Of a stretch of DNA of 64,000 nucleotides, positions 10,241-52,363 are shown in pieces; the first letter of the stretch is position 1, and each line of letters starts with the position of its first letter. The notes under the pieces were generated by a model. That model saw only the letters and a program-made list of their open reading frames with translations, had not been told where the DNA came from and searched no databases. The stretch covers positions 868,001 through 932,000 of the forward strand of contig NZ_CP016477.1 in NCBI RefSeq assembly GCF_001693275.1, in the 5' to 3' direction. The position numbers were made by a program, and so were the translations under genes. The DNA comes from Picosynechococcus sp. PCC 7117. Lineage in GTDB: Bacteria > Cyanobacteriota > Cyanobacteriia > Cyanobacteriales > MRBY01.

Positions 10241-10255
10241 TTAATCCTCTATTAA

Positions 10256-10343
10256 CAGCTTCCCTACGCTGGTATTACCCAGTCTCAGGTTCTAAGGGAC
10301 TATCTCAGTCTGATTCCTATGACAGACACCCCTAGCTATGGCA
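10256..10343 (-). promoter_or_regulatory. TPP riboswitch in the thiC leader
   Basis: On the minus strand the leader has the diagnostic blocks in order: GGGGTGTC, C-T-G-A-G-A, then C-C-C-T-T-A-G-A-A-C-C-T-G-A, TGGGTAATACCAGCGTAGGG-A-A. These match the conserved thiamine pyrophosphate aptamer. It ends about 22 bases before the thiC start. High TPP is expected to lower thiC expression. Mechanism (translation or termination) is not evident; no clear terminator with a T-run follows. Confidence 0.93.
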
Positions 10344-48180: not shown

Positions 48181-49029
48181 ATGATGACAAACCTTGTTTT
48201 AACGAAAGAAACCCTCTGTTTTGGCGGCAAAGTGCAGTATTACCAGCACAATTCCGAGGTGTGCGGTGTACCGATGAATTTTGCGGTATTTGTGCCGCCC
48301 CAAGCCGAAACTCGACCCATACCAACCCTCTATTACTTATCAGGTTTGACCTGTACTGAGGAAAATTTCACCACGAAGGCGGGCGCCCAAAAATATGCCG
48401 CAGACTATGGCTTAATGCTCGTGGCCCCCGACACCAGCCCCCGCAATACGGGCATCGCCGACGAGGATAAAGATTGGGATCTTGGCAGTGGCGCCGGTTT
48501 CTATGTGGATGCAACCCAACAGCCCTGGGCAAACCATTACCAAATGTACAGTTACATCATCGAGGAACTGCCCCAACTCATCGAAGCGAACTTTTCCGTG
48601 ACGGCGAAACGGGGAATTTTTGGCCATTCCATGGGAGGTCACGGGGCGCTCGTTTGTGCCCTCCGGCAGCCTGATTTCTACCAGTCGGTTTCCGCCTTTG
48701 CGCCGATTGTTGCGCCGAGTCAGTGCCCCTGGGGAGAAAAAGCGTTTACTGCTTATCTGGGCACGGATAAAACCCTCTGGGAAAATTATGATGCGACGGC
48801 TCTCTTACAAAAAAATGGCCCTTTAAAGTACCCAATCCTGGTGGATCAAGGCAGCGCCGATGGTTTTTTGGAGAAACAATTACTGACAGAAAAATTGGCG
48901 ATCACCTGTGAAAAAGTCGGTCAACCCCTCACCCTCCGCTACCAAGACGGCTATGACCACAGCTATTTTTTCATTGCCACTTTTATGCTTGACCATGTCC
49001 GGCACCATGCCCAATTCCTGATTGGCTAA
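48181..49029 (+). CDS. fghA: S-formylglutathione hydrolase
   Basis: 282 residues. Hydrolyses S-formylglutathione to formate and glutathione, the second step of formaldehyde removal. Nucleophile Ser in G-H-S-M-G-G-H-G-A (about residue 146), acid in D-Q-G-S-A-D, His in D-H-S-Y-F-F. It follows frmA by 56 bases, a likely operon. Its last 34 codons lie in a 264-base direct repeat, a second copy of which stands 3.2 kb downstream. Confidence 0.95.
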   Translation: MMTNLVLTKETLCFGGKVQYYQHNSEVCGVPMNFAVFVPPQAETRPIPTLYYLSGLTCTEENFTTKAGAQKYAADYGLMLVAPDTSPRNTGIADEDKDWDLGSGAGFYVDATQQPWANHYQMYSYIIEELPQLIEANFSVTAKRGIFGHSMGGHGALVCALRQPDFYQSVSAFAPIVAPSQCPWGEKAFTAYLGTDKTLWENYDATALLQKNGPLKYPILVDQGSADGFLEKQLLTEKLAITCEKVGQPLTLRYQDGYDHSYFFIATFMLDHVRHHAQFLIG

Positions 49030-49192
49030 ATGTTTTCGCCGAACCTGTTCCATAATGGGAACATCAGTTTAGGTGTGAGCCAAGCATTACAGAGATTATG
49101 ATTGGGCAGTTACTCGATGGCCGCTATCGCATCGTCAAATCCTTGGCGGCGGGAGGCTTTGGGCAAACCTTTATCGCCGAGAACATTAAACA
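48929..49192 (+). repeat. 264-bp direct repeat, proximal copy (fghA end + kinase start)
   Basis: Matches 52100-52363 with seven mismatches and no gaps. It covers the last third-codons of fghA, the 68-base spacer and the first 95 bases of a Ser/Thr kinase gene. It is joined to an intact fghA but a broken kinase. Confidence 0.93.
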
Positions 49193-49217
49193 GCAACTCA
49201 CTGTTCACATATCCTGA
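49098..49217 (+). pseudogene. Ser/Thr kinase, 5' fragment
   Basis: A 39-codon remnant: M-I-G-Q-L-L-D-G-R-Y-R-I-V, then the glycine loop A-G-G-F-G-Q-T-F-I-A-E. It matches the start of the intact kinase at 52269 and stops soon after the repeat boundary, where unrelated sequence begins. Confidence 0.9.
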
Positions 49218-49267
49218 TTAAGCCAAAACTTTATAAGATTGGTGTAAGTGTTCTCCCGTTGTTATGA

Positions 49268-49432
49268 CCATTTGTCAGCCCCCAACAAGTCCTCAAAAAC
49301 CGTTATCGTATCGATGCAAGCTTGACCCCCAGCGGCTGTGGGCTGACCTACCGCGCCTTTAATCTCGAAAAAAATCAACCCGTCGCGATTAAAACTCTCA
49401 ACCGTCATCTCCACGGCGATCGCCTAAAGTGA
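49268..49432 (+). pseudogene. Second Ser/Thr kinase fragment (N-lobe)
   Basis: An open stretch without a start codon that reads V-L-K-N-R-Y-R-I-D, S-G-C-G-L-T-Y-R-A-F and P-V-A-I-K-T-L-N, ending L-K-stop. This is the N-terminal lobe of another kinase, with the ATP-binding Lys in V-A-I-K. It is not the same gene as 49098-49217 or 49520. The reading is truncated on both sides. Confidence 0.75.
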
Positions 49433-49519
49433 TCGCATTTTTTTGTTTAAAATTGTCAGAATACACCACGAAAATTCTGTAAGTTTCACTGTTTTCCAAT
49501 CCCAGCAAGTTCTTACACC

Positions 49520-51319
49520 ATGACCTACCACCAAAGTCAGTGTCTAGCTCCCGATTGTCAAACTATCAATCCCTATGATCATAAATTTTGCCAGCGTTGC
49601 GGTAAAAGGTTGACCCTAAGAAATCGCTATCGTTCGGTGCAGTTTTTAGGGGAAGGTGGTTTTGGAAGAGCATTTTTGGCGATCGACTCGGATACCTGGG
49701 ACACACCCTGCGTGATTAAGCAGTTTTTGCCGAACTTGGGAGGAGCATCTGGCAGTGCGGTGCTCGAAAAAGCGAAAGAATTGTTTAAACGGGAATCGAA
49801 GCAGTTGAAAGAGTTGGGCAAACATCCCCAAATTCCTGATCTGTTGGCATTTTTTGAAGAAGAGAGCAAGCTTTATATCGTTCAAGAATATATAGAAGGC
49901 AAAAATCTACTAGATCTAGTACTGTCTCAAGGGCGTTTTCCTGAGGCAAAGATCCGGGAATTTTTGGCTAGTCTGCTCAAGGTTTTAGAATTTGTCCATG
50001 GACAAAAGGTGATTCACCGAGACATTAAGCCGGAAAATATTATTTATCAAACGGAAAAACAACAATATGTACTAATTGATTTTGGGGTGTCGAAGCAGGT
50101 GGGCAGTACTTTAACTCAGGTGGGGACGACTGCGGGGACTACAGGATATGCGCCACCAGAACAAATGCGAGGGTATGTGGATTATTCCTCTGATCTTTAT
50201 GCTTTAGCGGCGACAACAGTTCGGTTATTAACGGGGAGATTTGCGCAAGAGGTCAATGGCTTGCTCGAAGATGAGGTCTATGACATTCCTAATTGTGAAT
50301 GGGTCTTTGGGGATTGGTGTCGGCGCAATCGGATTTCTCTAAGCAAAGAACTAGAGCAGATACTTTTGAAAATGTTGAGCCTGCGTCCAAAGGAGCGCTT
50401 TGCTGCAGCAACGGAAGTTTTATCAGTCTTAAACACAAACAAGAATCAACCACAGCAGATTACTACGCCACGGGTATCCTCTGCTAGAAATCAGCCCTCA
50501 ATGCCATCTTCTTTCGTGGAGGACTTGGGTAATGGGGTCAAGCTAGAAATGATATTGATCCCAGCGGGAAGCTTCATGATGGGGACACCGTATGATGAAA
50601 TCACTAAACTGTGCAAGGAATATAAAGTCGATTACTTTAAGCGCGAACGCCCACAACATCACGTAAAGATCAAAAAACCCTTCTACATGGGAAAATTCTT
50701 AGTCACCCAAGGACAATGGCAGGCGGTGATGGGAAATAATCCGTCGTATTTCAACGATGGAGACAACTATCCGGTAGATTCAGTATCGTGGAACGACTGT
50801 CAAAAGTTTATCGAGGAAATTAATAAAAAAACAAGAAAAACCTATCGACTTCCCAGTGAAGCGGAGTGGGAATATGCTTGTCGTGCTGGCACAAAGACAG
50901 CGTTTTATTTTGGGAATACCATCAGCACAGACCAAGCCAACTACGATGGAAATTATTTCTATGGCAAAGGGAAAACCGGGGTCTATCGACGAAAAACAAC
51001 GGCTGTAGGCAGTTTCCCTGCTAATGCTTTTGGGCTGTACGATATGCACGGTAACCTATGGGAGTGGTGTGCAGATCCTTGGCACGATAGCTATATGGAA
51101 AAGTCAAAGCGAGTGAGCGAAAATGGCAACGCTACATGGCCATCTATTTATGAAAGGCTTCGTATACTACGGGGCGGTTCTTTGAACAACAGTCCGAGGT
51201 TTTGTCGCTCGGCATATCGCTTCAGGGTCAACCTGAACGGCTCCTACGGGGGGGTCTGGGTTGGGTGTCGAGTGGTTTGCGTTGGCTCCAGTGCTCCCAA
51301 TTTTTACCAGAATCAATAG
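49520..51319 (+). CDS. Ser/Thr protein kinase fused to FGE/C-lectin-type domain; candidate DGR target
   Basis: 599 residues. An N-terminal zinc ribbon (Cys8, 13, 24, 27) is followed by a eukaryotic-type kinase (35-305): G-E-G-G-F-G loop, Lys67, catalytic H-R-D 165-167 and D-F-G 186-188. A Pro/Ser/Gln linker leads to an FGE-sulfatase/SUMF1-type domain (about 335-590; P-A-G-S-F-M-M-G, V-T-Q-G-Q-W, L-P-S-E-A-E-W-E-Y-A, M-H-G-N-L-W-E-W). The last 40 residues, L-R-G-G-S-L-N-N-S-P-R-F-C-R-S-A, then V-G-C-R-V-V-C-V, look like the variable region of diversity-generating retroelement targets. Such proteins use the lectin-like fold for ligand recognition; here this may control a kinase. No reverse transcriptase is nearby. 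The gene lies in a block bracketed by direct repeats. Confidence 0.88.
   Translation: MTYHQSQCLAPDCQTINPYDHKFCQRCGKRLTLRNRYRSVQFLGEGGFGRAFLAIDSDTWDTPCVIKQFLPNLGGASGSAVLEKAKELFKRESKQLKELGKHPQIPDLLAFFEEESKLYIVQEYIEGKNLLDLVLSQGRFPEAKIREFLASLLKVLEFVHGQKVIHRDIKPENIIYQTEKQQYVLIDFGVSKQVGSTLTQVGTTAGTTGYAPPEQMRGYVDYSSDLYALAATTVRLLTGRFAQEVNGLLEDEVYDIPNCEWVFGDWCRRNRISLSKELEQILLKMLSLRPKERFAAATEVLSVLNTNKNQPQQITTPRVSSARNQPSMPSSFVEDLGNGVKLEMILIPAGSFMMGTPYDEITKLCKEYKVDYFKRERPQHHVKIKKPFYMGKFLVTQGQWQAVMGNNPSYFNDGDNYPVDSVSWNDCQKFIEEINKKTRKTYRLPSEAEWEYACRAGTKTAFYFGNTISTDQANYDGNYFYGKGKTGVYRRKTTAVGSFPANAFGLYDMHGNLWEWCADPWHDSYMEKSKRVSENGNATWPSIYERLRILRGGSLNNSPRFCRSAYRFRVNLNGSYGGVWVGCRVVCVGSSAPNFYQNQ
51168..51288 (+). 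other. Putative DGR variable region (VR)
   Basis: Encodes residues 550-590 of the FGE domain. The frame between R-G-G-S and C-R-V-V-C-V holds many positions where related proteins have Asn (AAC): here TTT, TAT, TTC, GTC, GGC, TCC, TAC and GTC. Seven of the eight are NNY codons lacking A in the first position, as expected if adenines of a template were randomised. The template repeat is not in the window, so this remains a prediction. Confidence 0.55.
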
Positions 51320-51370
51320 ATGTGTAAATGTATTGAGCGTGCCTAGTGGGGAGTCCAGCCTAAATCCAGC

Positions 51371-51388
51371 GATGAGAGCAATCTCATC
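51371..51388 (+). other. Perfect 7-bp stem with GCAA tetraloop downstream of the VR
   Basis: GATGAGA-GCAA-TCTCATC, about 50 bases after the stop codon. DGR target genes often carry a short stem with a four-base GNRA-like loop just downstream of the variable region; in the best-studied phage case it is closer to it. No T-run follows, so it is not an ordinary terminator. Confidence 0.5.
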
Positions 51389-51550
51389 CAAAAATCACCT
51401 TGGGGCCGCGTGGTAGAGTAGCTTGGTTGAAAGGCTATGCTGTCTCTATTGATGGCAGGATTCAAATTTTGTGCTGATGAACAACCTCAAATACCAACCA
51501 GAGTAAAATTGTGGAAGTTGCACGCTCCTAATCCTTCTCCTAGAAATACG

Positions 51551-51766
51551 ATGAGTATTCTCCAACAACAAATCCAAGAATTAAGTCTTGCTGAAAAAAT
51601 TCAACTCGTACAAGACCTGTGGGACGACATTGCCACCACAACAGATGACCTTCCCCTCACTCAACTTCAAATAGCAGATCTCGATCGCCGTCAAAAGCAA
51701 TACCAAGCCCATCCGACAGACGTTTCCCCTTGGGCAGAAGTACAGCAGCGCATTTTAGACCGATGA
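51551..51766 (+). CDS. Antitoxin of a ParE/RelE-type pair (addiction-module component)
   Basis: 71 residues from ATG 51551 (M-S-I-L-Q-Q-Q-I-Q-E-L-S-L-A-E-K-I-Q-L-V-Q-D-L-W-D). The L-S-x-x-E-K-x-x-L-x-x-x-L-W-D pattern is that of small addiction-module antitoxins (the 'putative addiction module component' family). A GTG/TTG-started extension from 51437 has no similarity. The stop overlaps the toxin start by four bases (ATGA). Confidence 0.85.
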   Translation: MSILQQQIQELSLAEKIQLVQDLWDDIATTTDDLPLTQLQIADLDRRQKQYQAHPTDVSPWAEVQQRILDR

Positions 51767-52059
51767 AACGACCTGTTGTTCTAACTCCTCAAACAGAACA
51801 AGACTTAGAAACAATCTATGATTGGTATGAACAGCGGAGCAAAGGACTTGGGTCAGAATTTATCCGGATCATCGATGCGAACCTCGCCCAAATTCAACGT
51901 TATCCCGAAGCTCACCCTGTCGTTAGAAAAGACATCCACCGCAAAATTATCCGCCGCTTTCCCTACGCTCTGTTTTACATCATCGCAGAAACGCAAATAG
52001 TTATTATTGCTTGTCTTCACCTCAAACAAGATCCCCAACAGCAATCCCGTTTACAGTAA
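51763..52059 (+). CDS. ParE/RelE-superfamily toxin
   Basis: 98 residues from ATG 51763 (M-K-R-P-V-V-L-T-P-Q-T-E-Q-D-L). Family features: D-L-E-T-I-Y-D-W-Y-E-Q-R-S, L-A-Q-I-Q-R-Y-P-E-A-H-P, I-R-R-F-P-Y-A-L-F-Y-I-I, and the final L-H-L-K-Q-D-P. Such proteins poison gyrase (ParE) or cleave mRNA (RelE). The pair lies at the right end of the inserted block, 41 bases before the distal 264-bp repeat. Confidence 0.9.
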   Translation: MKRPVVLTPQTEQDLETIYDWYEQRSKGLGSEFIRIIDANLAQIQRYPEAHPVVRKDIHRKIIRRFPYALFYIIAETQIVIIACLHLKQDPQQQSRLQ

Positions 52060-52099
52060 TTTAGTTTTCCTTTTGCCCTTTGTCCCATGCCCACCAGCA

Positions 52100-52363
52100 T
52101 CACCCTCCGCTACCAAGACGGCTATGACCATAGCTATTTTTTCATTGCCACTTTTATGCTTGACCATGTCCGGCACCACGCCCAATTCCTGATTGGCTAA
52201 ATGTTTTCGCCGAACCTGTTCCATAATGGGAACATCAGTTTAGGTGTGAGCCAAGCATTACAGAGATTATGATTGGGCAGTTACTCGATGGCCGCTATCG
52301 CATCGTCACATCCTTGGCGGCGGGGGGCTTTGGGCAAACTTTTATCGCCGAGGACATCAAACA
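52100..52363 (+). repeat. 264-bp direct repeat, distal copy (fghA remnant + kinase start)
   Basis: The copy joined to the intact kinase at 52269. Its left part (52100-52200) is a remnant of the fghA 3' end, still reading [12 protein letters not shown], with stop TAA. Seven mismatches to 48929-49192. Sequence before 52100 has no fghA similarity. Confidence 0.93.

Follow-up and report, generated by a model that had tools for sequence, protein, structure and literature searches.

A kinase with a lectin-like C terminus in Picosynechococcus sp. PCC 7117 as a candidate orphan, frozen product of a diversity-generating retroelement

In cyanobacteria, diversity-generating retroelements (DGRs) act on CLec modules, which are most commonly fused to kinases, and one survey counts 219 CLec genes in 21 genomes, 121 of which appear to be DGR diversified (PMC7517822). 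The same survey describes a paralog, all3226, that has remnant homology between template and variable region (TR-VR) and no proximal reverse transcriptase (RT), suggests that DGR parts are removed once a variant has been selected, and states that Synechococcus spp. and Prochlorococcus spp. lack DGRs (PMC7517822). Related DGR targets are proposed elsewhere to be antigen sensors (PMC10907252). Our literature search found no paper that links Picosynechococcus with DGRs, nor any that is worded around orphan variable regions and template repeats.

The gene studied here lies in a 64,000-nucleotide stretch of the Picosynechococcus sp. PCC 7117 genome, which we call the window; G000 denotes its genome, and G001 to G004 denote other genomes of the same genus, G001 and G002 being those of sister species. 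An earlier note on this DNA described a kinase whose FGE/C-lectin C terminus carries a DGR-like frame, and the gene structure bears this out. Positions 49520 to 51319 on the forward strand, which also carries all features listed in this paragraph, form one uninterrupted reading frame that encodes 599 aa. In the protein, Pfam places a kinase domain (PF00069; residues 37 to 297, positions 49628 to 50410, E = 1.3e-41) and an FGE-sulfatase/CLec domain (PF03781; residues 343 to 586, positions 50546 to 51277, E = 2.6e-46). The translation has the kinase motifs VIKQF, HRDIKPEN, and DFG, preceded by a zinc-ribbon-like N-terminal stretch with four cysteines (C8, C13, C24, and C27; 49541 to 49600). The VR frame sits at the extreme C terminus of the CLec/FGE module, at residues 551 to 589 of 599 (51170 to 51286); this tail reads RGGSLNNSPRFCRSAYRFRVNLNGSYGGVWVGCRVVCV, and its codons at the variable positions are those that the note had listed. 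The kinase half (49535 to 50476) also matches PADLOC PD-T4-6 models, with a best E value of 2.7e-94, scores that may reflect plain kinase homology only.

An AlphaFold2 model of residues 331 to 599, built from 54 aligned sequences in which the G002 row stops before its tail, had a mean pLDDT of 87.0. Its matches to Treponema TvpA (2y3c; Z = 29.7, rmsd of 1.8 Å over 225 residues) and to PvdO (5hha; Z = 29.7, rmsd of 2.0 Å over 232 residues) were tied, and the DGR proteins TaqVP (5vf4) and Mtd (1yu2) were matched with Z scores of 12.8 and 12.5.

A complete DGR is present within the genus. The element in G001 (L037:8441-18424) comprises an RT with the motif IGNLTSQ, a bAvd gene (E = 1.2e-18), a template that translates to GDWNNNPRNCRSAYRNNNSRDNRNNNIGFRVA, and three VRs that differ from the template at 13 to 16 adenines and at no other base over 96 nt. 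Proteins with an RVT_1 domain occur in three of six genomes of the genus, G000, G001, and G003. The G003 protein, a 736-aa frame that is 29% identical to the G001 DGR RT over the RT part, was rejected as a DGR RT; it is an RT-Cas1 fusion (L035:136-2346, reverse strand; PF01867, E = 5.8e-89). The single RVT_1 protein of G000, 351 aa long and encoded outside the window at C1:2575271, is of retron type, scoring as PADLOC RT-TIR_XII (E = 5.3e-133) and reaching 386.7 bits with NCBIfam Retron_TIR_antiphage, under the cut-off of 600. It carries QGAPTSP and not a motif of the IGxxTSQ type, a difference that we take to separate retron-type from DGR-type RTs. There was no sign that this RT works as a DGR: its scores are retron type, and the DGR RT query did not bring it up as a candidate. 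At L001:50-2403 it stands downstream of an AlbA_2-TPR protein, with which it could possibly form a defense unit.

The absence of an RT and template from the window, as noted earlier, held genome-wide in our searches for DGR-type parts. Queried with the G001 DGR RT, the 3.43-Mb, 99.99% complete genome of PCC 7117 returned 0 candidates. The tail DNA, searched against the same genome at E values up to 10, found only itself, barring matches of 23 nt or less (the next best was 21 nt, E = 0.37). The G001 template gave nothing above 31 bits in G000, and at E values up to 1 its matches did not include the window's own tail, which makes the tail-DNA search the stronger template test; elsewhere, the template search reached G001 tails down to 71 to 72% identity and the G002 ortholog tail (E = 9e-6). 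In a 36-kb set, blastn with the window tail matched the G001 template at 37 of 47 nt (E = 3e-6). For G002, neither RVT_1 nor the G001 DGR RT query found a DGR RT, and the template search yielded short matches and, beyond these, just the tail of the ortholog. We therefore rejected an active DGR in G000, having found no DGR RT and no template. Lack of an RT, which the note had regarded as grounds for dismissing a DGR target, speaks against activity and is silent on the history of the tail, because hypervariable pairs of tails also link genomes without a detected DGR RT.

Presence of the frame was likewise rejected as proof of a DGR. Of 388 genomes sampled from the order, 329 have an FGE relative (E ≤ 1e-40) and 74 a G001-type DGR RT (E ≤ 1e-80); FGE proteins thus commonly occur where no DGR is detected, and the frame, a trait of the large FGE/CLec family, is not diagnostic alone. 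Beyond it, the informative parts are column-specific divergence and a codon footprint. Nor is the surrounding frame fully conserved in the window, contrary to the earlier description. Among 101 FGE tails, 7 of which lack the standard 32-residue frame and were left out of frame and codon counts, leucine at column 5 occurs once, in the window, with tryptophan there in 93, and "GC" at columns 30 and 31 occurs once, again in the window, with "GF" in 87. The window tail has thus changed Trp to Leu and Phe to Cys, and it has two extra codons. Retrohoming would overwrite such changes, and adenine mutagenesis cannot make them, so the tail is at most a frozen, eroding product and not a working target, unless the lost template itself carried those changes. 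Given this non-adenine damage and the failure to find an RT or template in G000 or G002, a retroelement acting on the tail today is not supported.

Pairwise comparison of the same 101 tails, taken from fetched loci, was used to examine divergence by column; 679 of 5,050 pairs were dropped, as they included a tail without the standard frame. The 12 template-Asn columns were picked by the analyst, with columns 19 and 29, which are Asn in some templates, excluded, and two codons were removed from the window tail to keep register. At body identities of at least 0.76, the 112 pairs, which are not independent of one another, fell into two classes: 94 shared 0 to 5 of the 12 template-Asn columns, 18 shared 10 to 12, and none shared 6 to 9. 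The window tail and its G002 ortholog (body identity, 0.78) agreed at 2 of 12 template-Asn columns and at 14 of 20 frame columns. Pairs of the fixed class at like body identity, such as L016/L027 (0.79) and L051/L125 (0.78), kept 12 of 12 loop columns. At codon positions 1 and 2, window and G002 differed at 13 of 24 sites in template-Asn columns versus 6 of 40 in the frame (Fisher P = 0.0016), and the fixed control pair L016/L027 differed at 0 of 24 and 2 of 40. Comparison with this sister species, the note having proposed sister strains, found divergence concentrated in the template-Asn columns, together with change in the frame.

Codon usage at the 12 columns followed the same division. NNC, the third-base trace to be expected from AAC template codons, averaged 0.66 in 36 tails seen only in hypervariable pairs (window and G002 included) and 0.20 in 11 tails seen only in fixed pairs, and it was 0.57 in the 8 tails found in both classes. 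This footprint is present in the window tail (0.58; body, 0.235) and in the G002 tail (0.58; body, 0.18). When NNC was corrected for body NNC, hypervariable-only and fixed-only tails differed even with window and G002 excluded (Mann-Whitney P = 7e-6, from sequences that are not independent).

Two other measures were less telling. The window tail, for which no own template was found, was compared with six foreign ones and had 19 non-A mismatches over 63 sites with the nearest; six fixed-class tails had 18 to 32, four hypervariable-only tails 13 to 17, L050 (in both classes) 19, G002 13, and three G001 cassette VRs 0. Adenine-mismatch counts of this kind do not discriminate for the window tail, whose adenine specificity is not demonstrable in a comparison lacking its own template. 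DNA identity to G002 was 0.65 to 0.75 at 51170 to 51289, 0.83 to 0.87 at 50870 to 51109, and 0.88 to 0.97 after 51290. However, the dip at the tail is not unique, since identity was also 0.70 to 0.78 in the first FGE part (50510 to 50869) and 0.72, with gaps, in the linker (51110 to 51169), and it lends DGR ancestry weak support.

Similar patterns recur in other genomes, among relatives of the window kinase that are mostly cyanobacterial. Near homologs were followed at 36 loci in 33 genomes. Six of these genomes gave a DGR RT match at E ≤ 1e-40, one match covering only 160 residues, and none was found in the other 27, which are partly drafts and include two that were only partly scored; DGR products are possibly more widespread than DGRs themselves, given so many homolog-bearing genomes with no RT detected. 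The tails of L050 and L053 share 2 of 12 loop columns at a body identity of 0.89, in genomes without a DGR RT match, as do L058 and L065 at 0.88, with 62 of 75 candidates scored for the L058 genome. The Arthrospira sp. PCC 9108 FGE kinases L085 and L101 have bodies 97 to 100% identical and tails that share 1 to 4 of 12 loop columns, with NNC at 0.92; among 62 of 145 candidates scored in that genome, no DGR RT reached E ≤ 1e-40. One relative, 39% identical, is encoded on a viral contig, and a phage origin was considered.

In both G000 and G002, the FGE-kinase lies between an esterase gene and the gene for a 469-aa kinase. In the window, a 264-nt direct repeat, which holds the esterase 3' end, intergenic DNA, and the start of the 469-aa kinase, occurs at 48929 to 49192 and again, 97% identical, at 52100 to 52363 (both forward), as a duplication of the junction that is single in G004, where the 469-aa kinase directly follows the esterase and the site is empty. 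The insert also contains, on the forward strand, an antitoxin-like gene (PF09720, Unstab_antitox; 51551 to 51766, start codon inferred) and a ParE-type toxin-like gene (PF05016; 51730 to 52059), and this pair is 88 to 97% identical in DNA to G002 per 60-nt step. In G002, 250-nt repeats (96%) flank a larger insert that has the toxin-antitoxin pair and an FHA-kinase too. Between window and G002 (L039:8174-10030), the kinase halves (window 49520 to 50464) are 30% identical in protein, versus 75% for the FGE bodies. The layout would fit integration of a circle by a single crossover, or duplication of the junction, followed by exchange of modules. The motif CGATCGCC, presumably HIP1 of cyanobacteria, occurs 163 times in the window versus about 2 expected, which, along with the mostly cyanobacterial relatives of the kinase, marks the DNA as cyanobacterial. 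The insert (49193 to 52099) holds 4 of the 163, somewhat below its share, a count compatible with foreign origin. Elsewhere in the window, a TPP riboswitch (RF00059, 69.6 bits) lies at 10244 to 10343 on the reverse strand.

We consider it probable, if well short of settled, that the window kinase is an orphan, frozen DGR-type variable protein whose loop residues were set by a DGR, be it of an ancestor or of a donor genome. Its place in the hypervariable class, with 2 of 12 columns in common with an ortholog of 78% identity, and its NNC footprint support, without proving, that the tail descends from a DGR target; the earlier proposal that a retroelement retunes the recognition domain of this kinase may therefore stand for the past, and for the present it is not supported. 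One possibility, to which we assign a clearly lesser chance, is that this is an ordinary FGE-kinase, never a DGR target, in which the usual course of mutation and diversifying selection changed an exposed ligand loop. The template-Asn columns coincide with that loop and could be open to ordinary selection, the frame is common in the FGE family, the frame losses and the non-A mismatches to the nearest template fit plain divergence, the first FGE part is nearly as divergent in DNA from G002 as the tail, and no RT or template was found in either genome. Yet fixed-class pairs at equal body identity keep every loop column, and fixed-class tails are without the footprint seen in window and G002.

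Two further explanations invoke DNA from elsewhere. Recombination could have brought in the whole tail from another FGE gene, in which case its divergence marks a recombination tract and not mutation in situ. This locus does recombine, as the kinase halves and FGE bodies (30% versus 75%), the junction duplicated on both sides of the insert, and a gap zone of 84 columns just upstream (51110 to 51169) attest. But frame codon positions 1 and 2 agree with G002 at 34 of 40 sites, and sequence after the tail is about 90% identical, down to a common ...QNQ ending, which leaves import improbable. Remote or trans targets of DGRs are described in PMC7517822 and PMC10907252, and a DGR on an unassembled or mobile element might on that precedent still retune the kinase in trans; an almost complete genome with no DGR RT candidate or template found, an eroded frame, and a sole RVT_1 protein of retron type make this very improbable. 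The earlier note had left the element either acting from elsewhere or gone, and of the two the second is the likelier.

If the kinase is indeed a frozen DGR product, the FGE-type C-lectin domain at the C terminus of this Ser/Thr kinase would display a ligand-binding loop, from a family in which cyanobacterial DGRs vary the residues that template AAC codons specify. The DGR of an ancestor or donor would most likely have supplied the loop residues, and the gene may then have arrived in, or stayed in, G000 without RT and template. The binding tip would now be frozen while frame positions slowly erode, and ligand binding by the loop would probably regulate the kinase or select its substrate. More tentatively, DGR-bearing cyanobacteria might serve as workshops, from which sensor modules, once tuned, reach DGR-free genomes as frozen cassettes and are joined to differing kinases at a recombination site with duplicated junctions. 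Were this so, sister species with one common locus would differ both in the signal read and in the kinase driven. The two-class split at template-Asn columns, together with the NNC footprint, suggests how frozen DGR products could be distinguished from ordinary lectin-like domains when no template is at hand, and the locus is a testable case, with an empty site, an ortholog, and an active sister DGR within one genus.

Among known systems, formylglycine-generating enzyme and PvdO (2aft, 5hha) have the PF03781 family and fold in common with the window domain. Compared with the human sequence, an Asn apparently replaces what we take to be one of the two copper-binding cysteines of FGE, and the window domain is for that reason probably no oxidase. 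Treponema denticola TvpA (2y3c), which we assume to be without a kinase, unlike the window protein, has a fold that the model predicts to be common with the window FGE domain along the whole domain. According to PMC6328139, TvpA is a DGR variable protein of the CLec type, and its variable region is C-terminal; it belongs to a DGR, whereas the window kinase was found without one in its genome. The G001 DGR has the tail frame in common with the window kinase, and full-length FGE relatives in G001 are 39 to 56% identical to the window FGE domain, but in G001 an RT, bAvd, and a template accompany three cassette VRs that differ only at adenines, whereas searches of the window genome found neither a DGR RT nor a template. 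Closest are the kinase-CLec paralogs of Vallota-Eastman 2020, which combine a Ser/Thr kinase with a C-terminal CLec and are also dispersed from any RT (PMC7517822). DGR retuning of a kinase recognition domain is not new but the main published picture of cyanobacterial DGRs (PMC7517822), and the window kinase, in a genome without a detected DGR and with an eroded frame, would be a new orphan member under this known mechanism.
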